DNA from: Methanomicrobiales archaeon
GTDB lineage: Archaea > Halobacteriota > Methanomicrobia > Methanomicrobiales > Methanospirillaceae
DNA: 64,000 nt
Direction of reading: 5' to 3'
NCBI GenBank assembly: GCA_012516785.1
Contig: JAAYWH010000029.1
Location: 1-64,000, forward strand
This document shows, one piece after another, positions 39,097-62,933 of this stretch. The position numbers and the translations under genes were made by a program. Positions within the stretch are counted from its first letter, which is position 1. Each line of letters opens with the position of its first letter. A model generated the notes under the pieces. The model saw only the letters and a list, made by a program, of their open reading frames with translations. It did not search any database and was not told the DNA's origin.

Positions 39097-40479
39097 TTAT
39101 CCCCGGGCGCCGGTCCTGCAGGAAACGATAAAAGACGAGAACATGTTCCGGCTGCTTACCGGGTGAAGGTGGGTGTAGCTCCCGATTGTATTGTCCCGGA
39201 CGGCACCATCGAGCTGCCCCTTTATCCCTTTGCCACGCGAGAGGAGGTAGGAGAATCGGGTATCCGTCTGGAGATTCACATCAGAGTAATGGAACTCATG
39301 GCCCCGGAAATGTCCTGCACCGAGGGGATTTCCTCCCTGGCTCTCTCCTTCGACATAACTAACAATCCGGCGTGCAGGCATGATCGTTTCACCATCAAAG
39401 ACCCCGCACATCCCGCAGGCCTCCTCCTTGTCTGATCCCTGCCATCCCGCTTTCGTCCGTATCGCTCCGGTGAGGTACATCAGGCCCCCGCATTCGGCGT
39501 AGATCGGGATACCCTCCCTCGACCTCTCATGTACCGCATCCCTCATCCGGTCGTTTGCCTCGAGTTCATGCAGGAACAGTTCGGGGTATCCCCCTCCGAA
39601 GATGTACCCGTCCGCTTCCGGCAGCCGGTCATGGATCGGGCTGAAGGTGACTACCTTTGCCCCGCCAGCCCTTAGGTGGTCAAAGAGATCCGCATAATAG
39701 AAATTAAACGCTTCATCGAGTGCAACTGCAATGGTCGTATCGGGTACCTCGGCAGGCTCGAACAGGGGATCATGGCCGGGAGGGGTGGGGACCGTGGCTG
39801 ACAGTCCAAGGAGGAGATCGGGATCGATATGATCCCCCACCATTGCAGTAATGTTCTGGATGCGCCGGAGAAATGCAGGAGCAGTCTTTCCTTCGAGATA
39901 GGGCACCAGCCCCAGGTGGCGCATCGCAAGCTCCATGTCAGGCTGGCGTGGTACTGCCCCGATGACCGGGACCCCGCAATGGTGCTCGATTGCCTCGGTA
40001 GCCTTCCGGACATGCTGTGGCCCAGAGACATTGTTCAGGATGATCCCCCTGATATCGATCGCAGGGTCAAATGATTGGAATCCCTTCACAATGGCGGCGG
40101 CACTCCGGGTGATGCTCCGTGCACTTACCACCAGTACGACCGGTATGTTCAGGAGCTTTGCGACCGCTGCACTGCTCCCCTCATCCCCGAGGGACTCTGC
40201 CCCCTCGTAAAGCCCCCTGACACCTTCTACAAGGCCAACATCCGATCCCTCCATCCCGTGGGCGAAGATCCTGGCAAGATCTGTTCTTTCCATCACGAAG
40301 GTATCCAGGTTACGGCAGGGACGCCCTGTAACCCCGGTGAGGTAGGAGGGATCGATGTAGTCCATGCCCACTTTGAACGTCTGGACCGTCATCTTCTGCG
40401 AGAGCAGCGCAGCGATCGCGAGGCTGATGCTGGTCTTCCCGCTCCCTGAACGGTCCCCTGAGATCATCAGAGCTCGCAT
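39097..40479 (-). CDS. cfbB: Ni-sirohydrochlorin a,c-diamide synthase CfbB
   Basis: Product of 460 residues, CbiA-type. An N-terminal ATPase domain with SGDRSGSGKTSIS is joined to a C-terminal class I glutamine amidotransferase domain with the nucleophile in IYAECGGLMYLTG. CbiA amidates cobyrinate; in a cfb cluster the same chemistry acts on Ni-sirohydrochlorin, the second step towards coenzyme F430. Context (cfbD, cfbE, cfbA upstream in one run) decides the CfbB call. Its start overlaps the end of cfbD by 13 bases. Confidence 0.92.
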   Translation of the reverse strand: MRALMISGDRSGSGKTSISLAIAALLSQKMTVQTFKVGMDYIDPSYLTGVTGRPCRNLDTFVMERTDLARIFAHGMEGSDVGLVEGVRGLYEGAESLGDEGSSAAVAKLLNIPVVLVVSARSITRSAAAIVKGFQSFDPAIDIRGIILNNVSGPQHVRKATEAIEHHCGVPVIGAVPRQPDMELAMRHLGLVPYLEGKTAPAFLRRIQNITAMVGDHIDPDLLLGLSATVPTPPGHDPLFEPAEVPDTTIAVALDEAFNFYYADLFDHLRAGGAKVVTFSPIHDRLPEADGYIFGGGYPELFLHELEANDRMRDAVHERSREGIPIYAECGGLMYLTGAIRTKAGWQGSDKEEACGMCGVFDGETIMPARRIVSYVEGESQGGNPLGAGHFRGHEFHYSDVNLQTDTRFSYLLSRGKGIKGQLDGAVRDNTIGSYTHLHPVSSRNMFSSFIVSCRTGARG

Positions 40480-41540
40480 GACATGCTCCGGAGGATCGCA
40501 CCAAACTCGCTCTCGACAATATCTTTCACGCCAAGGGTCCGGGGATGGAGATCCACCTCAACGACGACGTGCCGGTGCCCAAGGTCACGGAGCGGCTCGA
40601 CCTGCCGCGGGCCGTTCGTTATCGAGAAGCATTCGATCCCATCGGTATATTCCCGGGGGATTGCGTGCGGAACCCCGACAATGAGTGCAAACTCAGGGTC
40701 AAGTTCTGAAAGCCGCTTCCCTACAGCCTCTCCGTTAGCACCGTACTCATCGAGGGCCCCCAAAAGCCCGGGTTCCAGCCCCCGCCCGGTCATCCCTGCA
40801 AGGATCCGTCGGGCATCTTGCCGGACCTTCGGAAGACCCCTGGCTTCAAGGTTTGCAAGATACGTGATGTCGGCACAGGGGCAGAGGTCATGGAGCGCCA
40901 GGAGTTCATCCGCGAACATGTATGCGGTCTCTTTCTTGGCGTTCATGATTGCAATCCCCCTCTTTCCCGAACCTGCAAGGGCGGCCAGCCTTCCCGCAAC
41001 GAGATGTTTGAGATCCCCCCGGGAGGGCTCTATATAGGGTTTACAGGCTGCTCCCCGGAGACGCTCCACTTCGTTTGCCATCCCGAGCAGGTATTTCTGG
41101 CGTTCGAGTTCATCGGCTGAGATCCATCCTGCCTCAGCGGCGGGTTCAAGGGTGGCGATCACACCCTCTATGTTCTCGGGATATCCTGCATGGATCTCGA
41201 TCGCGATGGTTGGCGTTGAGACGCCCGAGAGGGTTACTGCCGACTTGAGATCCTCACCGATGATCATGGAGACACAAGTACCCACGACCGCCATCCTGTG
41301 GGGGTGGAACTGCTCCTCGGCATACCTGAGAACCCGTTCGAGCGGCTCCTGCCCCCCGAAAATGAACTCGTGGTCGGCGAGTGAGGTGGTCAGCACCCGC
41401 ATCCCGTCTTCTTCAAGGAGCCGGGCATGCTTGAACGAGCATCCCGACGGCCCGTGGAGCACGGCTACATCGACCTCCAGATCGCGGGCGGTATAAAGGG
41501 CAGCGACAATCGAACTCGGCCTCGGCTGCATATACTTCAT
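40467..41540 (-). CDS. cfbD: Ni-sirohydrochlorin a,c-diamide reductive cyclase, CfbD subunit
   Basis: Product of 357 residues, a NifD-like protein. It begins MKYMQPRPSSIVAALYTARD. Cluster-type cysteines are in HGPSGCSFKH and VGTCVSMIIGEDL. With the NifH-like CfbC it performs the six-electron reduction and cyclisation of the F430 precursor. The ATG at 41540 follows GGAGGTGAGAGAAGCC; the long upstream extension of the frame lies over cfbE and is not translated. The partner gene cfbC is absent from this cluster. Confidence 0.93.
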   Translation of the reverse strand: MKYMQPRPSSIVAALYTARDLEVDVAVLHGPSGCSFKHARLLEEDGMRVLTTSLADHEFIFGGQEPLERVLRYAEEQFHPHRMAVVGTCVSMIIGEDLKSAVTLSGVSTPTIAIEIHAGYPENIEGVIATLEPAAEAGWISADELERQKYLLGMANEVERLRGAACKPYIEPSRGDLKHLVAGRLAALAGSGKRGIAIMNAKKETAYMFADELLALHDLCPCADITYLANLEARGLPKVRQDARRILAGMTGRGLEPGLLGALDEYGANGEAVGKRLSELDPEFALIVGVPHAIPREYTDGIECFSITNGPRQVEPLRDLGHRHVVVEVDLHPRTLGVKDIVESEFGAILRSMSCEL

Positions 41541-41548
41541 GGCTTCTC

Positions 41549-42751
41549 TCACCTCCAGCACTTCACGGAAAGGACAATGCTTCCACAGCTGGTAAGGGTG
41601 CGTGCGATGGAAATCCCCTCGGCAAGGGATCCAGCATAATGGAACGGGATACTCCTGCATCCGGGATCATCTCCGATCCCGGCATATTCGCTGCCAACCA
41701 TGATCACCATGGCAGGTTGGATCTCACCGATCACAGCAAGGATATCCTCTCTTGGAAATCCCTCGCACACCGCCCCGGTCTCTTTCCCGGTGACGAGCGT
41801 GATCTCCTCTTTGCCTGTAACATTCCTTGCGTACTGCACCGCAGACCGGGTTGTCAGTGCACAGGTCCCTGAATTTGAATTGTCGATGATCCGGATCCCC
41901 CCTTCAGATGTCTGGGACATCCTGCCCTGGATGGCCTGAAACGATGCGAGCCGTGACGGGTCGCCCCCCAGATCACAACCGGCAGCGGCTGCGAGCTGCA
42001 GGGGTATCCGGTAACTCTCGAGCATGAGGAGCGGGGATCCAAAGGTCCCGGTCATTCCCCCGCATTCCCACCGGCACACCTTACCATCAGTGACAGCGAC
42101 TGACTCAACCTGCACTGCACCCGGGGCATCAACTCCCGGGGCTACCAGAAGGCGGGGGAGCCGCTGCCCGGATCGGACCTTCTCGGCGAGGGCCTTCTTT
42201 TTTCCACCGGCGAAAAGGTAATCCTCCGATGAAGTGATGATCCCATACTCTCCTGCACCTGTGCACCCGAGAGAGACCTCGCTGATGCACCACCCCCCGA
42301 TACGCAGCGCCTCTTCTGCCGCCGGGACAAGGGAGGTGGGGGTAATACTCTTCTTCCAGATAAGGTCCTTTTCCGGGAAACGGTAGGTTCCTCTGGAAGT
42401 ATGGAGGATGCCCGGCCCCTTCATGACATGGGCAAGTGCACAGGCTGTGGTCGTCTTGCCCCTGGCCCCCGTGATCTCGATGAACGGTGCAGGCCTGTCC
42501 TTTCCGATGATCCACCTGACCGCATCGTGGTGTGAGATGACGGGGACCGTAAGCGACTGGAGCAGCGGGTGCCACGGATCGAGGTGAACCGGTGCAATAG
42601 CCAGGTCATACGACCGCTCTGCTGCGGTTGCGGCATCGATCCCCACATTTCCTCGGTAAACATCGACTACGTCTGTGAAATGGCCCCTGACGTTCAGGTA
42701 TCTTGCGATGTCAAGACCGCCATGGATCGTGTCGATAACAAGAATTCGCAT
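41549..42751 (-). CDS. cfbE: Coenzyme F430 synthetase CfbE (Mur-ligase-like)
   Basis: Product of 400 residues. The Mur-type P-loop is ITGARGKTTTACALA. The last part has LVTGKETGAVCEGFP and ends SIVLSVKCWR. CfbE uses ATP to close the six-membered carbocyclic ring from a propionate side chain, giving F430, the nickel cofactor of methyl-coenzyme M reductase. It lies between cfbA (6-base gap) and cfbD (8-base gap). It is shorter than a complete MurD, as is usual for CfbE. Confidence 0.92.
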   Translation of the reverse strand: MRILVIDTIHGGLDIARYLNVRGHFTDVVDVYRGNVGIDAATAAERSYDLAIAPVHLDPWHPLLQSLTVPVISHHDAVRWIIGKDRPAPFIEITGARGKTTTACALAHVMKGPGILHTSRGTYRFPEKDLIWKKSITPTSLVPAAEEALRIGGWCISEVSLGCTGAGEYGIITSSEDYLFAGGKKKALAEKVRSGQRLPRLLVAPGVDAPGAVQVESVAVTDGKVCRWECGGMTGTFGSPLLMLESYRIPLQLAAAAGCDLGGDPSRLASFQAIQGRMSQTSEGGIRIIDNSNSGTCALTTRSAVQYARNVTGKEEITLVTGKETGAVCEGFPREDILAVIGEIQPAMVIMVGSEYAGIGDDPGCRSIPFHYAGSLAEGISIARTLTSCGSIVLSVKCWR

Positions 42752-42757
42752 GAAGGA

Positions 42758-43159
42758 TTACAGGGTTGAGAGCACCCGTTCGGCATTCTTTATCATCAGG
42801 TCAGCAAGAAGCGGATCGCTGCCGATGGGATCTGCATAGAGGAGGGGGATGTTCTTTCCGTTCATTGCAAACTGCCCCTTTGTCTCCCCGCCCGATAGCC
42901 CTATGATCTCCGGGATATCCTGCAGGATATGTACCCCTTTGGCAAGGAACAGCGGCACGACAACCAGCACTTCGATAGGCTCGTTCCGAAACGCATCCAT
43001 GGAGTCCTTGATGGAGGGGGAGTTCATGTTCATAAATCCGCATTTTACGATAAAATCCGGATATCTCCTGGCAATAAGCCCGGCAGTCTCTTCGACAAGT
43101 TCCTTATTATACGGGAGTTTACTTCCATGGCCCACAAGGAGGATGCCCTTCTTACTCAT
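42758..43159 (-). CDS. cfbA: Sirohydrochlorin nickelochelatase CfbA
   Basis: Product of 133 residues, the small single-domain CbiX type that works as a dimer. Metal-site histidines lie in ILLVGHGSKLPYN and PLFLAKGVHILQD. It inserts nickel into sirohydrochlorin, the first step of F430 synthesis, and may also insert cobalt. The ATG at 43159 fits the family; the long upstream frame is not protein-like. First gene of the cfb run, divergent from the marker 9 operon. Confidence 0.93.
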   Translation of the reverse strand: MSKKGILLVGHGSKLPYNKELVEETAGLIARRYPDFIVKCGFMNMNSPSIKDSMDAFRNEPIEVLVVVPLFLAKGVHILQDIPEIIGLSGGETKGQFAMNGKNIPLLYADPIGSDPLLADLMIKNAERVLSTL

Positions 43160-43398
43160 ATGGTAATACGTTGTGCTGATGGACGTAAAACAATTGCCAA
43201 TTTTCCCCCCGAACATTCCAGGCAGCACCTCAGAATGAAGGAATCCGCAGGCACTGGAGGGGGAAGAAAGGGTTTTTATACCATTTTTTGTATATTCCTT
43301 CCGGTTTATTTTTAAGGTATTCAAACGATTTATAATCCCATACAATGGATCATCTACTGCATTCGGTGTAATTTTGAAACCTGTCCAGCGTGTTACAT

Positions 43399-52550: not shown

Positions 52551-53759
52551 ATGACTGTACGAGAACTGGGTCACGACATCTACTGGATCGGGGCGATCGA
52601 CTGGAACCGGAGACTGTTCGACTCCCTGATCCCCCTCCCAGAAGGGACAAGTTACAATGCCTACTTTGTGAAGGGAAGCGAGAAGTCTGCCCTTATCGAT
52701 ACCGTTGATCCGAGCAAGGAATTCGAGTTTGTCTGCAACCTGATCAAGCTCGGTGTTGAAAAAGTGGATTATATCATCATCAACCATGCAGAGCAGGATC
52801 ACTCGGGATCGCTTCCCATGGCTTCAGAGCTCTTTCCGGAAGCCCGGATCGTCGTCAGCGAGAAATGCAAAGACCTGGTGGTGAGCCTGCTTGAGATCGC
52901 CCCGGAACGGTGCCTCGTGGTGAAAGACCATGACACGATATCCCTCGGCGACCGGACTCTCGAATTTTTCATGGCCCCCTGGGTACACTGGCCGGAGACG
53001 ATGTTGACCTATCTCCGGGAGGACAAAATTCTGTTCTCATGCGATCTGTTCGGTTCCCACATCGCAACAAGCACTCTGGTGGTGCACGATGTGGCGGAGA
53101 TGTATCACCCGGCAAAACGGTACTATGCTGAGATCATGATGCCGTTCCGGATGCAGATCCGGGACCATATGAAGAAGATTGCTGACCTCAAGATTGAAAT
53201 GATCGCACCAAGCCACGGTCCCCTGTATCAGCCACCCGATCCGATCCTTGCGCTTTACCGTGATTGGATATCGGATACGGTGAAGAATGAGGTCGTCATC
53301 CCGTATGCAAGCATGCACGGGAGCACTGAGAAGATGGTCCTTCATCTGGCCGGTGCCCTCATCGATCGCGGCATCGCGGTCAAACCATTCGACCTGACAA
53401 AAACGGACCTTGGCGAACTGGCCGCCGCTCTGGTCGATTCAGCCACCATCGTCATCGGCACCCCGACCCTCCTCTTCGGGCCGCATCCTCTTGTCGCCAA
53501 TGCCGCATTCATCACCAACCTGATCAGGCCGAAAGCGAAATATGCGACGGTAATAGGGTCGTACGGGTGGGGGGGAAAGACCGTGGAGGCAGTCAAGGGA
53601 ATGCTGAACCACCTTTCTGCCGAGATCATCGATCCTGTCTATGTGAAGGGAGCCCCCGACTCTGCCTGCCTGCGCGAACTCGAAGCCCTCGCAGAACGGA
53701 TTGCCGCAAAGCACCGGGAAGCAGGCTTGCTGAACGATTCACCTCCTTTGCTGCCATGA
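52551..53759 (+). CDS. fprA: A-type flavoprotein, F420H2 oxidase (FprA)
   Basis: Product of 402 residues. An N-terminal diiron beta-lactamase-like domain with NHAEQDHSG (H-x-E-x-D-H) and further metal ligands in SCDLFGSH and APSHGP is joined to a C-terminal flavodoxin domain (VIPYASMHGSTEKMV; GSYGWGGKTVEA). In methanogens this enzyme reduces O2 to water with reduced F420, protecting against oxygen. GAGGAGACGCTACC precedes the ATG. Next gene: phosphoribulokinase, same strand. Confidence 0.93.
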   Translation: MTVRELGHDIYWIGAIDWNRRLFDSLIPLPEGTSYNAYFVKGSEKSALIDTVDPSKEFEFVCNLIKLGVEKVDYIIINHAEQDHSGSLPMASELFPEARIVVSEKCKDLVVSLLEIAPERCLVVKDHDTISLGDRTLEFFMAPWVHWPETMLTYLREDKILFSCDLFGSHIATSTLVVHDVAEMYHPAKRYYAEIMMPFRMQIRDHMKKIADLKIEMIAPSHGPLYQPPDPILALYRDWISDTVKNEVVIPYASMHGSTEKMVLHLAGALIDRGIAVKPFDLTKTDLGELAAALVDSATIVIGTPTLLFGPHPLVANAAFITNLIRPKAKYATVIGSYGWGGKTVEAVKGMLNHLSAEIIDPVYVKGAPDSACLRELEALAERIAAKHREAGLLNDSPPLLP

Positions 53760-53832
53760 GCAAGGAACGATTCGAAAGAACCCGGTACCCGGCACTCCTG
53801 CGATGGGGGAATCATGGAAGGAGCCCGGCGAA

Positions 53833-54789
53833 ATGAATGGCAAACCCTCATTCCGGGAAGCCGTTTCTGCCCGGGGCGGCGTGTATGTTATTGGTGTTGC
53901 GGGGGATTCCGGTTCAGGGAAGACCAGCTTCACCCAGTCGATCCGGCAGTTGCTGGGAGTGGAGCTGGTCTCGACTATCACCCTTGACGACTACCATCTC
54001 CTCGACCGGGAACAGCGGAAGGAACGGGACATCACCCCGCTCGCGCCCGAGGCAAATGATCTCGGGGGGCTCGAAAAGGACGTGGCGTCCCTGAAGCAGG
54101 GGGCGGCAATCGAGAAGATGGTGTACAACCATTCGACGGGCACACTGGAAGGGCCGGTCCTGTTCCGTCCCTCCAAAATCGTGATCCTGGAAGGCCTGCA
54201 TCCCCTGTATACCAGTACCCTCCGGTCGCTCATGGATTTCTCCCTCTATGTCGACCCAGCAGACGATGTGAAAAAGGAATGGAAATTGAAGAGGGATATG
54301 GAAAAGCGCGGCTATACCCGGCATGAAGTGATGGAAGAGATCCAGAAGCGACAGGCCGATTACCACCGGTACATTGCACCCCAGAGAGAGTATGCCGATG
54401 CCGTGATCCATATCGGGTTTTCACGCTATGGACGTGATCTCGGTTGGCAGAAGAACATCTATCAGACCACCCTCTCCCAGATTCCGATCAGCGATGATCT
54501 TCCGAGGACGGATCTGGCGCTGAATCTTCCTGCCCTGATGACCCTCATTCCAGGGCAGTTCTCTCTCTCCTACTCCCGTCTGATTCTTGGCGGCCGGACC
54601 CTGGCCTCGCTCACGTTCGATGGCGAATTCGATTGCCATTTCATCTCAGGCCTCCGCGATCTCTTTTCAGGGGACGCAGGGGTAAGTCCCTGCCAGATCC
54701 TGGGCGAAAGGGATATGCTCACCGCTCCGGATGTTGTTCGGGCAATGCTCGCCTGGAGAATTATCCAGGATATTATTTCAGAGCAATAA
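53833..54789 (+). CDS. prk: Archaeal phosphoribulokinase
   Basis: Product of 318 residues. The P-loop is GVAGDSGSGKTSF, followed by TITLDDYHLLDR (substrate and base residues), NDLGGLEKDVASL, VILEGLHPLYT and DYHRYIAPQ. These match the phosphoribulokinase characterised from Methanospirillum hungatei rather than uridine kinase. It phosphorylates ribulose 5-phosphate; with a type III RuBisCO it runs the reductive hexulose-phosphate pathway. No RuBisCO gene lies in this window. AAGGAG precedes the ATG; a start at 53803 is possible. Confidence 0.88.
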   Translation: MNGKPSFREAVSARGGVYVIGVAGDSGSGKTSFTQSIRQLLGVELVSTITLDDYHLLDREQRKERDITPLAPEANDLGGLEKDVASLKQGAAIEKMVYNHSTGTLEGPVLFRPSKIVILEGLHPLYTSTLRSLMDFSLYVDPADDVKKEWKLKRDMEKRGYTRHEVMEEIQKRQADYHRYIAPQREYADAVIHIGFSRYGRDLGWQKNIYQTTLSQIPISDDLPRTDLALNLPALMTLIPGQFSLSYSRLILGGRTLASLTFDGEFDCHFISGLRDLFSGDAGVSPCQILGERDMLTAPDVVRAMLAWRIIQDIISEQ

Positions 54790-54852
54790 ATTGGAGAGAA
54801 CCGGCTCATCGCGCAAAAAAGATAATCTCCTTACAACTATCATTGTCTTACA

Positions 54853-56310
54853 ATGGGCCGCATGCGGTATTTTTCCACCGTGTTTGCCGAACTTGGGGGA
54901 ATGCTTGAATACATCGGCCCGATGACTGCAGTTCCCCTTCTTATTGCGGTCGCATTCAGGGAGTATTCACTCCTCCTTCCCATGGCTGCCGTTCCTGCAA
55001 CCCTTTTTGCACTGGGCTTCCTTCTGAACCGTCTTCCACGGAGAAAAGAGGATATCAGGCTCTCCTCCGCCTTCTGTTCTGTGGCACTGGTCTGGCTCGT
55101 TTTTGCGCTTGTCAGCACTATCCCTTTTATCCTTGTGCTTGACCTGTCCCTTACCGATGCCCTTTTCGAGACCATGGCGGGATGGACAGGTACCGGATTT
55201 TCCCTTCTGCACCCGTCCGGTTATATCCCTGAAACATTGCTGTTCTGGCGGACATTCATGCAATGGATCGGAGGTATTGGGGTTATTGCCCTCTCCATCA
55301 CCATGGCAGGCCGTGGAGGTCTGGTGCAATCACCGCTCTTCAGGTCCGACAGCAGGAGTGAACGGATCCTTCCTGGGGTGATTGCGACAGGAAAGGAGAT
55401 CTGGGCAGTCTATGTCTTCCTTACTCTCATCGGTGCAGGGGTGATACTGATTGCGGGAGTTCCCCTCTACGAGGCGATCATGCTCTCGCTGACCACCATC
55501 TCCACCGGAGGCTATCTCCCTTTTGAGGGGGGTCTTGCCATATATGAGAGCAGGCTCCTCGAATATCTTCTCATCCCGGTGATGATTGTCGGTGCAACAC
55601 CCTTTACCCTCTATTATATCTCATACCGGAAACGGAAACTCTCCCTCTTTGGTAACGAGCAGGTCAAACTGCTCCTCCTCTTCCTTGCGGCAGGCTCCGC
55701 CGTGGTTATCGCGGATCTGCACTATCTTAACAGCCTCCCGCTCACTGAGGCAGTGAGGCAGGGCCTCTTTTTCACCGCAGCGGCTATCAGCACGACGGGA
55801 TATCAAGGCCAGCAGATCCAGTTGTTTCCCAGTGTCACCATCGTATTCCTTATGCTCCTGATGTTCATCGGGGGCTCTTCCGAGAGCAGTGCCGGCGGGG
55901 TCAAGCTCTCCCGCATCGCGATCGGATACCGGGGAATACTCTGGTGGTTCAAAAGGGTCTTTGTCCGGACAAAGGTTCTGGTCCCTTTCATGTATGGAGG
56001 AGTTAAAGTCCCCGAGAGCGTGGCAGAGCCAGAATTGTCCAAGAACATGCTGGTGATCATCCTGTCGGTGCTGACCGTATTCATTGCAACGATGGTGGTA
56101 CTCCAGTTCCATCTTATCTCTCTTGATGTGACCAATCTGGTCTTTGACATCGTCTCTGCCCTGAGCTCCTGCGGACTTTCGGCTGGGTATGTCACGCCCG
56201 GGATGCCGTTTGTATCAAAATGGGTCTTCATCATCGTCATGTGGATCGGACGGCTCGAAGTTATCCCGGTGATTGTGCTCCTCCTTGGGATCTTCCGTGC
56301 TGGTGATTAG
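54853..56310 (+). CDS. trkH: TrkH-family potassium uptake protein
   Basis: Product of 485 residues with about ten to twelve membrane helices. The four filter-loop repeats are recognisable: AGWTGTGFSLL, TTISTGGYLP, AAISTTGYQG and SALSSCGLSAGY. It is the channel-like membrane subunit for K+ uptake and normally works with a TrkA regulator, which is not adjacent. Promoter-like AT stretches lie in the 60-base gap after prk. ATG at 54862 is an alternative start. Confidence 0.93.
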   Translation: MGRMRYFSTVFAELGGMLEYIGPMTAVPLLIAVAFREYSLLLPMAAVPATLFALGFLLNRLPRRKEDIRLSSAFCSVALVWLVFALVSTIPFILVLDLSLTDALFETMAGWTGTGFSLLHPSGYIPETLLFWRTFMQWIGGIGVIALSITMAGRGGLVQSPLFRSDSRSERILPGVIATGKEIWAVYVFLTLIGAGVILIAGVPLYEAIMLSLTTISTGGYLPFEGGLAIYESRLLEYLLIPVMIVGATPFTLYYISYRKRKLSLFGNEQVKLLLLFLAAGSAVVIADLHYLNSLPLTEAVRQGLFFTAAAISTTGYQGQQIQLFPSVTIVFLMLLMFIGGSSESSAGGVKLSRIAIGYRGILWWFKRVFVRTKVLVPFMYGGVKVPESVAEPELSKNMLVIILSVLTVFIATMVVLQFHLISLDVTNLVFDIVSALSSCGLSAGYVTPGMPFVSKWVFIIVMWIGRLEVIPVIVLLLGIFRAGD

Positions 56311-56373: not shown

Positions 56374-57195
56374 ATGATGAAACAGATTGCCCTGTACGGA
56401 AAAGGGGGTATCGGAAAATCCACCACTTCCACCAACATCTCAGCAGCCCTTTCCGGGATGGGGCTCGATGTCCTCCAGATTGGATGCGATCCGAAACGTG
56501 ACAGTACCCGGATGTTGATGCATGGCAGGCTGATCCCCACGGTGATGGATCAGGTCCGGGAACGGGGCGACAAGGCAATTACCCAGGAAGACGTGGTATT
56601 TACCGGATACGGGGGTGTCCGGTGTGTTGAGGCAGGTGGCCCAGAACCCGGGGTTGGCTGTGCCGGCAGGGGGATCATCGCCACCTTTCAGGTGCTCGAA
56701 AGGCTTGGAGCCCTCCATGCGGATGTGGTCGTGTACGATGTGCTTGGTGATGTGGTCTGCGGTGGCTTTGCTATGCCGATGAGGGAAGGGTATGCACAGG
56801 AAGTATACCTCGTTACTTCAGGGGAACTGATGTCCCTGTATGCTGCCAATAATATCTGCAAAGCCATCCGGCGGCTGTCCGGGCGTTCACGCGGCCAGTG
56901 TCGGCTCGGGGGAGTGATCTGCAATGCCAAGAACCTCCCCGATGAGAAGCAACTGGTCGCCACCTTTGCGGAAAGGATAGGAAGCACTCTTATCCAGTTC
57001 ATTCCAAGGGACCCGGTCGTTCAGCGTGCTGAGCTCAACCGCATGACCGTCATCGAGTATCTTCCCGGGTCTGACCAGGCAGAGGCATACCGCCTCCTTG
57101 CCCGAAACATCATCGAGAACCGGCGGCTCGATATTCCCGAACCTCTTGAGATCGCAGAGCTCGAGAATCTGGCATATGATTTCATCGCGGACTGA
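56374..57195 (+). CDS. NifH-like reductase of a nitrogenase-like system
   Basis: Product of 273 residues. The P-loop [10 protein letters not shown], the switch Asp in CDPKRDST, and both cysteines that bridge the [4Fe-4S] cluster of a NifH dimer (GVGCAGRG, and [10 protein letters not shown]) are present. It has a nifH-like C-terminal tail ([12 protein letters not shown]). It would pass single electrons, with ATP hydrolysis, to the two NifD/K-like proteins encoded next. Sequence also resembles CfbC of F430 synthesis, so a shared role is possible. Overlaps the following gene by 20 bases. Confidence 0.88.
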
Positions 57196-58189
57196 AGGAT
57201 GCACCCTGACAGGTGCACTTTCTGTTACCACATCGGTCCAGGATGCCATCACGGTCATCCATGGCCCCGATGGATGTGCCCATCACAATTTTTCCCTTCT
57301 CCATGCCCTCCATTTCGATAACGACCAACTGAACCTGCCATCCATCCTATCGAGCTCGCTGAAGGAGCAGGAGATCATTTTCGGTGGCGAGTTTGCTCTC
57401 GAAGAAACTCTCTCGGGAGCCATGGGAGAAAGTCCGGGCGCCATTTTCGTGCTGACCTCCTGTGTCGCTGCAGCGATAGGGGACGATGTCAGGGCGGTCT
57501 GCAACGAGATCAGGGGATGCCCCGTTGTCGTTATCCCCACCGGAGGATTCCTCGGGGGTGGCTTTTCAGACGGTGTGAGATCAGCCCTTATAGCCCTCTC
57601 TGAACTGGGGAAAGGAGGAGATCCCAACGGAACCGTAACCCTTGTCGGCGAGAAGAACCTTGAGTATGAGGCAGAGGCAAACTACCGTGAAGTGCAGCGG
57701 CTTCTGGGATTACTCGGTGTGAAGGTCCGTCTCCGTTTTGTCAGGAACATTGCCGTCTCTGAGATTGCACAACTCGGGTCTTCCTCGCTCAATATCCTCC
57801 GGGAAGAATCTCTTGCTGATGTCGGCGATCTGCTAAAAGACCGGTTCGGTACCCCTTATCTTCCCTCGTTTCCTCTTGGATTCGAGGGGACACTCACGTT
57901 TCTGTCCCAGGTGGGTGACGCGTTGAACACCGGGAGTGACCGGGCAATCTCAATGGAACTGGAGCGCCAGAAGGGGATCATAGACCAATTTTCAGAATTG
58001 AGAGGAAGAGCGGTCAACATCTGCCATTCTGACCATATGCCCGCTCCGTTCCTTAGCGAATTGCTGGAACTGTTTGACCTTCAGGTAAAAGAACGGGGAC
58101 AGATCCTCACCCTGCCCGACCCGATCCCAGTCGGGACTTCAGGACTTTCCCGTATGCTCAGCCGGTGGCAGAGGGTACTCCATGCGTGA
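57176..58189 (+). CDS. NifD/NifE-like protein of a nitrogenase-like system
   Basis: Product of 337 residues. Three cysteines sit where the P-cluster cysteines of nitrogenase-type proteins fall: [18 protein letters not shown] and [12 protein letters not shown]. About 100 residues shorter than NifD, like other nitrogenase-like reductases. The cysteine/histidine pair that would hold an iron-molybdenum cofactor could not be found. The ATG at 57176 lies within the NifH-like gene; the first cysteine is only at residue 9. The 3' end overlaps the next gene by 8 bases. Confidence 0.82.
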
Positions 58190-59312
58190 CTGCCGGAACG
58201 CCCTGTGGCCTTGCGCAATGACAGGAGCGGTCACCTGCTTTACCGGGATCCGGGGGATCGGGACCATCATCCATGGACCGAGCGGATGCTACTTCTTTCC
58301 CGCGACAGTCCTTCACCGGAGGCTTTACTGCACCTTCCTAATTGAGGAAGATATCATCTTTGGTGCCGAGGCACGGCTCCTTGAGCTCGTGGAGAGGCTA
58401 CGGGAAGAGTACGAAGCAGTCGCTGTGGTGAATACCTGTACTCCTGCCATCACCGGCGAGGAGATACGGACCTGTCTGCCGGGAGAGATCCTTATGGTTG
58501 ACAGTCCCGGTTTTATCGGAAATTTTGAAGAAGGATACCACGCCGCGTGCAGGACCCTCCCTGCAAGGATCGATCCTGAAACCGCCGGGGTGAATCTTGA
58601 CGGGTTGCAGCTCCTTGACCCGTTCTGTGCGGGAAATGCTCTTGAAGCACAGCGGGTCCTCGCTGCAGCCGGTGTTGGTGTCGCCGCCCGGTTCTGTGAT
58701 GAAACCCTTGGCGGGATGAGGCATTCTTCAGGGTATTCCGTCCATACAAATCCCGATCTCTCTTCCGGGTTTGGCCGAAGCATGGGAACTCTTCTTGGAA
58801 TAGCCGAAACCGGGGAGACGCTCAAACGCCTTGAGAAAACTCTTGATGGTGTTGACCTGGAAGCGTTTGAGTACGACATGGAGACTGTCGGGAGTGCAAT
58901 AGAAACCTCCTGTGAGAAATTCCTGATGCGGCATGATCCGCCCGTTGTGGCCATCTTCTCGGGCTTCTCCTATGCCGATTTTGCCGCTCGGATGCTGAAA
59001 CACTACCTTGACGCTTCCGTTACCATTCTCGGTGTCCGCAATGCTCCTGGTAATTCACGATTCAGGACCGCGGAAGCCAGCTCTCTCTCAGCCGTGCAGG
59101 ATCTTATTGCCGCAGACCCGCCCGATCTCTTGCTGGGTTCTTCCTTTGAACGTATGGCATGTCCCGATGCCGCTTTCGTTCCGTTCACCTATCCCCTGAG
59201 GGGCATGGTCAGGCTGAAAGCACGGCCTCTCGTCGGGATTCAGGGGATTGCAGGGTTGATGGAGGATGTTCTCAACGCCTGCCTAGATCACCAGGATTCC
59301 CTGAATACCTGA
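58182..59312 (+). CDS. NifK/NifN-like protein of a nitrogenase-like system
   Basis: Product of 376 residues. It parallels the preceding protein: WPCAMTGAV, HGPSGCYFFP and VNTCTPAITGEE hold three cluster-type cysteines, followed by two further Rossmann-like units. Clearly different from the preceding protein and from CfbD, so the operon would make a heteromeric (alpha2-beta2 type) partner for the NifH-like reductase. The substrate is unknown. Stop is followed by a T-rich stretch (TTTTTTTATGG at about 59330). Confidence 0.82.
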   Translation: MRDCRNALWPCAMTGAVTCFTGIRGIGTIIHGPSGCYFFPATVLHRRLYCTFLIEEDIIFGAEARLLELVERLREEYEAVAVVNTCTPAITGEEIRTCLPGEILMVDSPGFIGNFEEGYHAACRTLPARIDPETAGVNLDGLQLLDPFCAGNALEAQRVLAAAGVGVAARFCDETLGGMRHSSGYSVHTNPDLSSGFGRSMGTLLGIAETGETLKRLEKTLDGVDLEAFEYDMETVGSAIETSCEKFLMRHDPPVVAIFSGFSYADFAARMLKHYLDASVTILGVRNAPGNSRFRTAEASSLSAVQDLIAADPPDLLLGSSFERMACPDAAFVPFTYPLRGMVRLKARPLVGIQGIAGLMEDVLNACLDHQDSLNT

Positions 59313-59462: not shown

Positions 59463-59906
59463 ATGATGAAGAACGCAGGATACCTGCAGTTAAACCGGCG
59501 GCCTGTCCTTGATGAGGAGGGAATACCGCAGGATATCCTCGAGCTGTACCTTTACGGCACAAGGCTCTGCATCCGGATCAATGAACTCCGGAAAGCCCTC
59601 CGTTCCGGCCTTTCCGTGAGTGTCGAGAGAATCCAGCGGAACTGGATGGCGTATATCGGAAGGAGTGCAGGCAACGCCCGGATATCAAAATCGGGGAAGG
59701 CCCTCAACATCGAGCTTTCGAATGGCGAACGGTTCACCGTTTCGCTCGACTCGCTCCATGCCGTGCTCTGCTCCCGGGAGCGGTATGCCTCGGTTGCAGT
59801 GCTCCCGGCAAATATCCACGGACAGATCGTGCAAAACAGGAAGATCACCGATTACTGCCCACTTTCTGCACGGGAGGGTGCGACCAGGAAAGCTCTCCCG
59901 GCCTAA
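59463..59906 (+). CDS. Small cytoplasmic protein, unknown
   Basis: Product of 147 residues. It begins MMKNAGYLQLNRRPVLDEEG, then a helical region (LELYLYGTRLCIRINELRKAL) and a beta-rich region with a basic character (WMAYIGRSAGNARISKSGKAL). It has four cysteines spread out, no tight metal motif. I do not recognise it. The ATG could also be the second one at 59466. It has its own TATA element. Confidence 0.65.
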   Translation: MMKNAGYLQLNRRPVLDEEGIPQDILELYLYGTRLCIRINELRKALRSGLSVSVERIQRNWMAYIGRSAGNARISKSGKALNIELSNGERFTVSLDSLHAVLCSRERYASVAVLPANIHGQIVQNRKITDYCPLSAREGATRKALPA

Positions 59907-59930: not shown

Positions 59931-61046
59931 TCATCCTTTAAGAAGAATATCCGCGAGGTGATCGCCAACAGAGGAGGTGGTTGCAGTGCCACCCATGTCC
60001 CTGGTAACAACTCCGTCAGCAATTGATCGCTCGATCGCCTTCAGCACCGCCGCAGCCGCTTCATGCTCACCCAGATGATCAAGCAGCATCGAACCTGCCC
60101 AGACCGTTGCGATTGGGTTGGCAACATTTTGTCCTTTGTATTTTGGTGCCGATCCATGGATCGGCTCGAACATCGAGGTCCCGCCCGGATTGATATTGGC
60201 ACCTGGTGCAAGGCCAAGGCCGCCCTGTATCATGGCCCCCAGGTCAGTGATGATATCCCCAAACATGTTCGGCGTGACCACCACATCGAACCACTCGGGA
60301 TTCTTCACAAACCACATGGTGACCGCATCAACAAAGGTGAATTCGGTCGAGATTCCCGGATTCCTGGCAGCAACTTCTGAAAATACCTCCCTCCAGAGCC
60401 CATACACATCGGAGAGGACATTGGCCTTGTCAACGGAGGTCAGCTTCTTTCTTCGTTGTCGGGCAAGGTCAAAGGCGTAGGATATCACCCGTTCAGCCCC
60501 TTCCCGGGTGATCACCCCCACCTGATAGGCAAGCTCATCGGCATCGGATTCGATGTCGAGGTTGAACCTTGCCTGATAAAGTTCCCGCTCAATGGTAAGT
60601 GTCTTTTTTTCTCTCCCATGAAAACGGGATCCGATACCGACGTAAAAGTCCTCGGTGTTCTCCCTTACGACCAAGAAATCGATATCGGAAGGGCCCTTCC
60701 CTGCAAGGGGTGTCGGCACCCCTGAAAGCAGCCTTATCGGCCTCAGATTTACGTAGAGGTCGAGGCAGAACCGGAGGTGAAGGAGGATCCCCTTTTCGAG
60801 GATCCCCGGGGGGACACGTTCGTCCCCTATCGCACCAAAGTAGATGGCTCGGTACCGGGAGAGCTCCTTTTGGTCCTCCTCGGTGACAAGCTCCCCGCTT
60901 TTAAGATACCGGTCCGCACCGATATCAAACTCGTCCCAGGCGAGGTCAAATCCATACCGCTCTGCTGCCGCATCGAGCACCTTTCGCCCTTCTGCGATGA
61001 TCTCAGGGCCGATCCCGTCTCCGCCTATTGCTGCGACCCGGTACAC
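59931..61046 (-). CDS. leuB: 3-Isopropylmalate dehydrogenase (or homologue)
   Basis: Product of 371 residues. Nucleotide and substrate residues are visible: GGDGIGPEI at the start, [28 protein letters not shown] and PIHGSAPKY. It oxidises 3-isopropylmalate in leucine synthesis; methanogens also have a related homoisocitrate dehydrogenase (AksF), and the two are hard to tell apart by eye. Operon with leuC and leuD favours leucine. It overlaps leuD by 22 bases. Confidence 0.85.
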
Positions 61047-61528
61047 CGATCCACCTCCTCGAGATTCCTCGCAAAGGGGATAAGACCCCCTGCATCAGCG
61101 ATTCGGAGCAGGAACCCAGGGACAGGCTCAATCGGATACGTTCTCTCTCCACAGGTTATCAGGTGCTTATCAACATCCACCCTGCACTCGTCACCATCAG
61201 GGATTGCATCAGCTTCAGGGCACACGAGGGGGAGAAGCCCTACGTTCACGGCGTTCCGGTAAAATATCCGGGCAAATGATACGGCGACCACATACCGGAT
61301 GCCTGCCCCGGCCAGTGCCAGGGGAGCATGCTCCCGCGACGATCCGCATCCGAAATTCCTTCCGCCGATGATGACATCCCCCGGGGCAACTCCTTTTGCA
61401 AAGTCGTTTCGGGTCCCTTCGAATGCATGCGACGCGAGTACCAATGGATCATTGTACACCAGGTACCGCCCTGGGATGATGGCATCGGTATCGATGTTGT
61501 CCCCGAACTTCCAGGTCCGCATGGTCAA
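61025..61528 (-). CDS. leuD: 3-Isopropylmalate dehydratase small subunit
   Basis: Product of 167 residues. The swivelling domain has [18 protein letters not shown] and [14 protein letters not shown]. The specificity loop reads Y-L-V-Y, the form that I recall for isopropylmalate isomerase; homoaconitase has Y-L-R-T. That makes a leucine role more likely than coenzyme B side-chain synthesis. Stop/start overlap ATGA with leuC (4 bases) and overlap with leuB. Confidence 0.9.
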
Positions 61529-62775
61529 ACCTCCCTCGGGTCGGTGATCTCGCCATAAAGGGCGCTTGCTGCAGCCGTTGCCGGTGAACAGAGATACACC
61601 GAAGCATCGGCACTCCCCTGCCTGCCCCGGAAGTTCCGGTTCGAGGTCGAGAGGGACACCTCCCCGGGAGCGAGCAGTCCGAAGGCGCCGCCCATACAGG
61701 GGCCGCAGCAGGGAGCTTCCACCAGCGCCCCGGCCTTCACGAACCGTTCGATCAGCCCTGTCTGCAGCGCTTTCAGATATTCGTCCCGCGATGCGGGAAT
61801 GATGATGACACGGGTTGAGTCGTCGAACTCCCTGTCCCCTATCACTTCTGCAGCATCCGCAAGGTCTTCGAATCTCCCGTTTGTGCAGGACCCAATGAAT
61901 ACCTGGTCTACCCTGGTCCCTGCGACCTCTCCGACGTCACGTGCGAGATCGACATTATGGGGGATGGCAACCTGAGGCGGGAGATTGGTCACGTCGTACT
62001 TCTTCCGGGCGGCATACCGTGCGTCGGGATCACTTTCGATCGACACCCGGCCCGTCCTTCCTCTGCTGTGCATGTACTCGTAAGTGACCTCATCAGGGGG
62101 CACGAGACCGGCCTTTGCCCCCATCTCAATCGCCATATTGCAGCAGGTCATCCTCCCGTGGATCGGCATCGTTGCAAACGTCTCCCCGCAGAATTCGATA
62201 GCCTGGTAGGTGGCACCATCAGCCCCAATATCCTTTGCTATCGAGAGGATCAGGTCTTTGGGACCGACCCGCCTCTGGAATTTCCCGGATACCTCAGCCC
62301 GTATCGTCTCGGGCACCCTGAAGTAAAGAGCCCCGAACTTGAGCACGAATCCCATGTCGGTGGATCCTATCCCTGTGGCAAATGCCCCGGTAGCACCATA
62401 CATGCAGGTATGCGAATCGGCGCCTACAATAATCTCACCCGGTCCTGCCTTTCCCTTCTCGAGAACAACCTGGTGGCAGATCCCTTCGCGTATATCATAA
62501 TTATGGATCCGCTGGTTCCGTGCAAACTCTCGCATGAATACATGGTTCTCTGCCGCGGCAAGGGAATCGGCAGGGACCTGATGGTCGAATAGGAGGATGA
62601 TCTTCTCCGGGTCAAAGACCTCCTTTCCTCCCATCTCGAAGAAATTCTGTATTGCAAGCGGTCCCGTGATATCATGGATCATCGCACCATCCACGGGTGC
62701 CATCACTACCTCACCTGCCCTGACCGAATGGCCACATTTTGACGAGAAAATTTTCTCTACGATGGTTGCTCCCAT
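61525..62775 (-). CDS. leuC: 3-Isopropylmalate dehydratase large subunit
   Basis: Product of 416 residues. It belongs to the aconitase superfamily with cluster cysteines in FIGSCTNGR and APCCGPCMGG. It starts MGATIVEKIFSSKCG, the form usual for archaeal LeuC; the open frame runs 35 codons upstream without family similarity. With LeuD it isomerises 2- to 3-isopropylmalate. First gene of a tight leuC-leuD-leuB operon. Confidence 0.92.
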   Translation of the reverse strand: MGATIVEKIFSSKCGHSVRAGEVVMAPVDGAMIHDITGPLAIQNFFEMGGKEVFDPEKIILLFDHQVPADSLAAAENHVFMREFARNQRIHNYDIREGICHQVVLEKGKAGPGEIIVGADSHTCMYGATGAFATGIGSTDMGFVLKFGALYFRVPETIRAEVSGKFQRRVGPKDLILSIAKDIGADGATYQAIEFCGETFATMPIHGRMTCCNMAIEMGAKAGLVPPDEVTYEYMHSRGRTGRVSIESDPDARYAARKKYDVTNLPPQVAIPHNVDLARDVGEVAGTRVDQVFIGSCTNGRFEDLADAAEVIGDREFDDSTRVIIIPASRDEYLKALQTGLIERFVKAGALVEAPCCGPCMGGAFGLLAPGEVSLSTSNRNFRGRQGSADASVYLCSPATAAASALYGEITDPREV

Positions 62776-62933
62776 GAGGGTTCCCAGTATCAATGGGGCA
62801 TGAAGAGATATGGAAGTTGTGGCACCAGAAGCAGGGAGTCTAACAGCGTGATTCCTGTGTAACTGCGAAATATTTCGCATTAAAAGATAATTATTTGAAT
62901 TTCCCCATAGAATTTCTGCTGTGGTGAACTACG

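Follow-up and report, generated by a model that had tools for sequence, protein, structure and literature searches.

The three-gene operon and its surroundings

The 64,000-nucleotide stretch of Methanomicrobiales DNA analysed here (the window) carries three overlapping nitrogenase-like genes, which raise the questions of what reductase they encode, which Fe protein powers it and what it reduces. In a first-pass annotation they had been described as a NifH-like gene followed by two different NifD/K-type genes, overlapping by 20 and 8 bases. The open reading frame coordinates agreed with this layout, and the genes were named H, D and K; the list includes the gene conserved just downstream of K:

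56374-57195, plus strand: H, 273 aa, NifH-type Fe protein, very probably CfbC, with P-loop GKGGIGKS and cluster cysteines C96 and C129
57176-58189, plus strand: D, 337 aa, read from the ATG at 57176 (alternative longer start, TTG at 57098), NifD/NifE-type catalytic subunit with three P-cluster-type cysteines and Arg209
58182-59312, plus strand: K, 376 aa, NifK-type partner subunit with three P-cluster-type cysteines and a nearly invariant N-terminal Cys4
59463-59906, plus strand: 147-aa protein, family not assigned, no Pfam or NCBIfam match

H matched Pfam Fer4_NifH (E 1.8e-108), and both D (182 bits, E 1.8e-53) and K (119 bits, E 2.2e-34) matched Oxidored_nitro (PF00148); with such E-values the family assignments are not due to chance, and the NifH-like and NifD/K-type identities proposed earlier were upheld. 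Similar H-D and D-K overlaps of a few bases were found in most of the 31 loci examined across the order. The annotation had also considered a decaying acquisition, which would have left relatives without orthologous operons. Such operons were found throughout the order Methanomicrobiales, and decay was ruled out by the intact genes in almost all genomes, by the invariant cysteines described below, and by dN/dS ratios of 0.03-0.18 between the window and same-genus homologues (rough values, synonymous sites being near saturation). The source genome assembly spans 1.96 Mb and is 90% complete.

The cluster of the 147-aa protein spans 15 loci, and its gene still adjoins H where D and K are absent (L045, L051, L070). 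The conserved upstream flank (52551-56310, plus strand) encodes an FprA-type flavoprotein, a phosphoribulokinase-like protein and TrkH, and the conserved downstream flank (59931-62880, minus strand) an isopropylmalate/homocitrate-type dehydrogenase and dehydratase set. In Methanoculleus, genes for a Usp protein, a tautomerase, an acetyltransferase and a PH-domain protein, together with further genes without assignment, lie between D and K. The identified neighbours of the operon included no radical SAM gene and no sulfur gene.

H is very probably the Fe protein of F430 synthesis

A cfbA-cfbE-cfbD-cfbB cluster, overlooked in the first-pass annotation, was located on the minus strand of the same window (39097-43345):

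39097-40479, minus strand: CfbB, Ni-sirohydrochlorin a,c-diamide synthase (NF033195, 630 bits, cut-off 560)
40467-41540, minus strand: CfbD, presumed second partner of H (TIGR03282, 503 bits, cut-off 268.4)
41549-42751, minus strand: CfbE, coenzyme F430 synthase (NF033197, 316 bits, cut-off 250)
42758-43159, minus strand: CfbA, sirohydrochlorin nickelochelatase (NF033198, 150.5 bits, cut-off 120; start inferred from the model match)

No NifH gene was found within this cluster. H scored 416 bits against the NCBI model NF033200 (F430_CfbC), above the membership cut-off of 402, and 392.3 bits against the nifH model, just below its cut-off of 394.35. Nearly all H orthologues of the order passed the NF033200 cut-off, while bona fide archaeal NifH proteins failed it. 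The cysteines C96 and C129 were invariant (39/39 homologues), and H was the sole NifH-family gene found in the source genome, the only other Fer4_NifH match lying far below the cut-off. Because H passes NF033200 and is the one NifH-family gene found in its genome, and because the cfb cluster of the window has no NifH of its own, we are highly confident that it is CfbC, the Fe protein of coenzyme F430 synthesis.

Among the relatives with good genomes, exactly one NifH-family gene was found in 32 of 45 and CfbD in all 45, and 60 of 61 relatives had a single CfbD copy. A draft genome can hide a second NifH, and for that reason more weight was given to the six genomes that consist of one contig and have a single NifH, a single CfbD and K (G022, G036, G037, G040, G042 and G049). 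F430 is needed for methane formation; a sole NifH-family protein in genomes that all contain CfbD must therefore serve CfbD. The earlier view, in which H would serve a new system only, was abandoned on these grounds, namely its CfbC score and its standing as the only NifH in most good genomes, all with CfbD; a purely private role is unlikely given the many complete genomes in which no other NifH exists. The cfbC gene that H represents shares its operon with D and K almost throughout the Methanomicrobiales.

The phylogenies bear on how this arrangement arose. FastTree grouped the H proteins of the order with NifH (0.998), and in the trees they were not joined with the CfbC of Methanosarcinaceae, the gene of which adjoins cfbD there. 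Lying outside the Methanosarcinaceae CfbC, H may have begun as a private reductase of D-K and assumed the CfbC role later, so that the H of this order may be either an old CfbC or a gene that took over its function. The version in which H displaced an older CfbC and now serves both partners, an evolutionary variant of the explanation preferred below, is a possibility to which we give rather less than even probability. The FastTree grouping speaks for it, as does the gene order, H sitting here with D and K and the cfb cluster being without it, but the mixture-model tree does not decide, allowing both a union of H with CfbC (p-AU 0.37) and a union with NifH (p-AU 0.39).

D and K belong to none of the characterised families

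The three cysteines in P-cluster-like positions reported earlier for each of D and K were confirmed and proved invariant, C9/C34/C96 of D in 31/31 homologues and C11/C36/C86 of K in 31/31 full-length homologues. In the ligand alignment this 3+3 set is likewise kept by NifDK and MarDK; CfbD keeps two cysteines, BchB has an aspartate and BchZ one cysteine. At the position of NifD Cys275, the L-cluster cysteine of NifE and MarD Cys270, all 31 D homologues have an arginine (Arg209), and D is without most of the third domain, including the region of the cofactor histidine (NifD His442). Five basic residues of D (K160, R175, R187, R209 and R332) are invariant or near-invariant. The N-terminus of K (58182-58226, plus strand) bears a nearly invariant MxxCxNPLWPC motif, in which an extra cysteine, Cys4 (30/31), precedes the P-cluster Cys11; it may be a further ligand or a redox switch.

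D and K scored below the cut-off of every NCBIfam family tested, the best score being 99 bits for D against NifE, which was the top-scoring model for D in all members scanned. In trees with NifD, NifK, NifE, NifN, MarD, MarK, BchN/B/Y/Z and CfbD as references, D and K each formed their own clade with 100% bootstrap on a long stem, no closer to CfbD than to other families, although the deep branching was not settled. The placement outside the NifDK, Mar and CfbD clades leaves intact the novelty claimed for the pair, and together with the order-wide operons it supports the earlier proposal of a heteromeric, ATP-driven nitrogenase-like reductase without an assigned substrate. The AlphaFold single-chain models had pLDDT values of 88.4 (D) and 90.7 (K); Foldseek matched D with NifE, VnfD, DPOR-B and MarD, and K with VnfK, DPOR-B, AnfK and NifN. 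NifE/NifEN chains led both the PDB sequence and fold searches. Falling outside groups I-III and V by trees and family models, D-K is, judged from sequence, a group IV nitrogenase-like (Nfl) pair in the broad sense.

Comparison with each characterised system led to its rejection as the identity of D-K. The six P-cluster cysteines of nitrogenase are all present, but NifDK, VnfDK and AnfDK were discarded in view of Arg209 at the Cys275 position, the mostly absent third domain and the separate clades. NifEN is similar in that D finds its best sequence match in NifE, and differs in that its L-cluster cysteine is replaced by arginine, D and K lie outside the NifE/NifN clades and the source genome has no nifDK. 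The CfbC-CfbD system resembles ours in its Fe protein, H being above the CfbC cut-off with CfbD in the same window, and in a nitrogenase fold without an active-site cofactor; D-K, however, is a hetero pair of two different subunits with 3+3 cysteines, is present in addition to CfbD, and scored 36.6 (D) and 40.5 bits (K) against TIGR03282, far from 268.4, in keeping with the separate clades. For DPOR (BchL-BchNB) and COR (BchX-BchYZ) the likeness is the predicted route from Fe protein through an Fe-S relay to an organic substrate in a cavity, and both D and K have BchB among their best matches by fold. As aligned, DPOR nevertheless uses three cysteines and one aspartate and COR three cysteines plus one, against six in D-K, and the best DPOR-model score of D-K was 65 bits for a cut-off of 490; to our knowledge, Methanomicrobiales archaea have no chlorophyll pathway.

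The MarHDK system shares the H-D-K gene order and the 3+3 P-cluster cysteines, but it has a cofactor cysteine and the radical SAM enzyme MarB, whereas D carries Arg209, D and K fall outside the Mar clades and no MarB-type radical SAM gene was seen among the identified neighbours. Isr, which goes with the radical SAM gene IsrB, has one cysteine in D and three in K (PMC11423573) and was set aside, D having three here. A 2012 survey described nitrogenase-like pairs with 3+3 cysteines and no FeMoco ligands, for which limited-electron reductions were suggested (PMC3464626). The yellow clades in Fig. 4 of that survey are, as described there, like D-K in having six P-cluster cysteines and lacking both FeMoco ligands; they are unlike it in being NifE/NifN-related pairs of diverse organisms, whereas D-K belongs to one order and is tied to cfbC. 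In the literature searched, no published function for D-K and no note of its link with cfbC was found, though an earlier mention is possible.

Distribution and natural losses of D-K

K was present in 205 of the 232 genomes of the class and in 126 of the 135 good ones. Scored with the K profile, the order's members reached 434 bits or more, and the highest value for a genome from elsewhere was 107 bits, roughly what other nitrogenase-like families give; in this profile search of an even sample of the phylum, no K orthologue was detected outside the Methanomicrobiales. The best 80 loci in the GTDB collection all had Methanomicrobiales names or belonged to unplaced MAGs named 'Euryarchaeota', and the nearest named records among the matches listed were Methanoregulaceae and Methanoregula genomes. 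Nearly the whole of an order of major methanogens has thus kept what is predicted to be an ATP-driven enzyme with neither a function nor a family model.

D and K were absent from the genus Methanospirillum (g13; G034, which we take to be Methanospirillum hungatei JF1, and G023), from G017 and from genus g2. In Methanospirillum and G017 D and K are gone, but H was kept among the same neighbouring genes, next to that for the 147-aa protein. D-K is thus dispensable and H is not, a pattern that a second client of H would predict. Methanospirillum (M. hungatei JF1 among them) is therefore a natural D-K knockout with the reductase gene in place, and its comparison with Methanoregula, Methanosphaerula, Methanoculleus and others that have D-K opens the question to cultured species. 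The members of genus g2 (L057:7589-8371, G012) carry no D-K and have a divergent NifH-type gene elsewhere in the genome, possibly a replaced CfbC.

A proposed second reductase sharing the Fe protein of F430 synthesis

The reading that we prefer, with a probability slightly better than even, is that of a CfbC-powered, ATP-driven D-K reductase without an active-site metal cofactor, acting directly on an organic molecule, most likely an F430-related tetrapyrrole. H would be an ATP-dependent Fe protein, a homodimer carrying one 4Fe-4S cluster. It would pass electrons to CfbD for F430 synthesis, for which it is the only candidate and matches the curated model, and likewise to the D-K complex, as suggested by the operon and its conservation. 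Gene counts and operon conservation argue for one Fe protein shared by CfbD and D-K, and it is likely that H serves D-K as well. By homology, H would hydrolyse ATP and send single electrons to the Fe-S site of D-K, a presumed heterotetramer with the nitrogenase fold in which 3+3 cysteines at the D-K interface make up a P-cluster-type site; those six cysteines could hold either a P-cluster (8Fe-7S) or a 4Fe-4S cluster.

Arg209 replaces the cofactor cysteine and the third domain with its histidine is mostly gone, so that D-K very likely lacks an active-site metal cofactor (FeMoco or L-cluster of known kind). With the cofactor ligands gone, the cavity should hold the substrate, which would occupy the FeMoco-type site in the way that DPOR accommodates protochlorophyllide. 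A polycarboxylate substrate would suit the conserved basic residues of D, and because the pair shares an operon with cfbC, the likeliest candidate is a tetrapyrrole of F430 or corrinoid type, rich in carboxylates, in which D-K would reduce a double bond of the ring. Two observations count against this: no clue to a substrate was found among the operon neighbours in the window or in the relatives' loci surveyed, and DPOR, COR and CfbD, as aligned, use fewer cysteines than the six of D-K, making the tetrapyrrole analogy inexact. We regard a tetrapyrrole substrate as about evenly balanced. Of the two substrates suggested in the first-pass annotation, the tetrapyrrole thus stays plausible, and a carbon-sulfur compound has become unlikely in the absence of the cofactor cysteine from D.

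The fullest form of the proposal, in which CfbC of the Methanomicrobiales drives both CfbD and an order-specific D-K, and D-K serves to reduce, repair or modify a tetrapyrrole of F430 or corrinoid type through a cofactor-less P-cluster-type relay, is offered tentatively, with a probability well below even. If true, such a relay would be a ligand combination without an assigned function so far, and the substrate of an enzyme encoded with the F430 reductase might reveal a new step of F430 or corrinoid metabolism. A six-cysteine P-cluster site without an active-site cofactor would also help to order the steps from CfbD-like tetrapyrrole reductases to nitrogenase.

Three other functions were weighed against this reading. 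The main rival, which we hold to be unlikely, is a NifEN-like scaffold that uses CfbC to process a NifB-made L-cluster or Fe-S precursor for the MCR activation complex. NifE is the best NCBIfam match of the window's D protein and NifE/NifEN chains top the PDB searches, nifB occurs in the source genome without nifDKEN, and the MCR activation complex carries L-cluster-like clusters (PMC12176620); but the L-cluster ligand of NifE is an invariant arginine in D, and MCR activation is common to all methanogens, whereas D-K was detected in this order only and is absent from Methanospirillum. Less probable again is an F430 accessory role, with D-K as a CfbC partner that aids or replaces CfbD at the reductive cyclisation in some condition, or that repairs damaged F430, for example its oxidised didehydro form. 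F430 oxidises to its 12,13-didehydro form, which cells can re-reduce, and both this chemistry and the operon with cfbC throughout the order would fit such a role, as would the DPOR-like logic without an active-site cofactor. Against it stand the constant presence of CfbD, the trees, in which D and K are no nearer to CfbD than to other families, and Methanospirillum, which manages without D-K.

We consider it very improbable that D-K reduces a carbon-sulfur compound or another small molecule in the manner of Mar or isethionate reductase. Relatives in group IV do perform such chemistry and MarDK has the same 3+3 cysteines, but the 8Fe-9S-C cluster of Mar depends on Cys270 (PMC12552129), where D has arginine, the cysteine distribution of Isr is different, and radical SAM or sulfur genes were not identified beside the operon.

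Other nitrogenase-related genes

The earlier remark that nifB is missing was correct for the surroundings of the operon and not for the source genome, in which a nifB gene lies on another contig (C107:1316-2131, L267; 350.8 bits, above the cut-off). No nifDK or nifEN was found in that genome, and a nifB without them fits a function in MCR activation (PMC12176620).

A further contig of the source genome encodes a single-gene NifD-like protein of 395 aa without a K partner (C17:34312-35418; L001 1501-2607), homologues of which were recovered at L186-L203 and L205. Its Cys13, Cys38, Cys96, Cys209 (equivalent to the nitrogenase cofactor cysteine) and His366 (near NifD His442) are invariant in 14 homologues, and in Methanoculleus-type genomes the gene adjoins cfbD-cfbB; from these residues it is a candidate for a homodimeric, cofactor-bearing relative between CfbD and nitrogenase.

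In G057 and the Methanospirillum-type G023, a single reading frame of about 740 aa joins NifH to a NifD-like part, and a K-like gene comes after it (L213:5552-7771 and L214:4444-6654); NifH-NifD-type fusions are mentioned in PMC3464626. Another three-gene group, made up of an H and two genes of D/K type and related in the tree to VnfEN-like sequences, was present at L073, L074, L224 and L225, in a few scattered genomes of the order that include the genus of the window.
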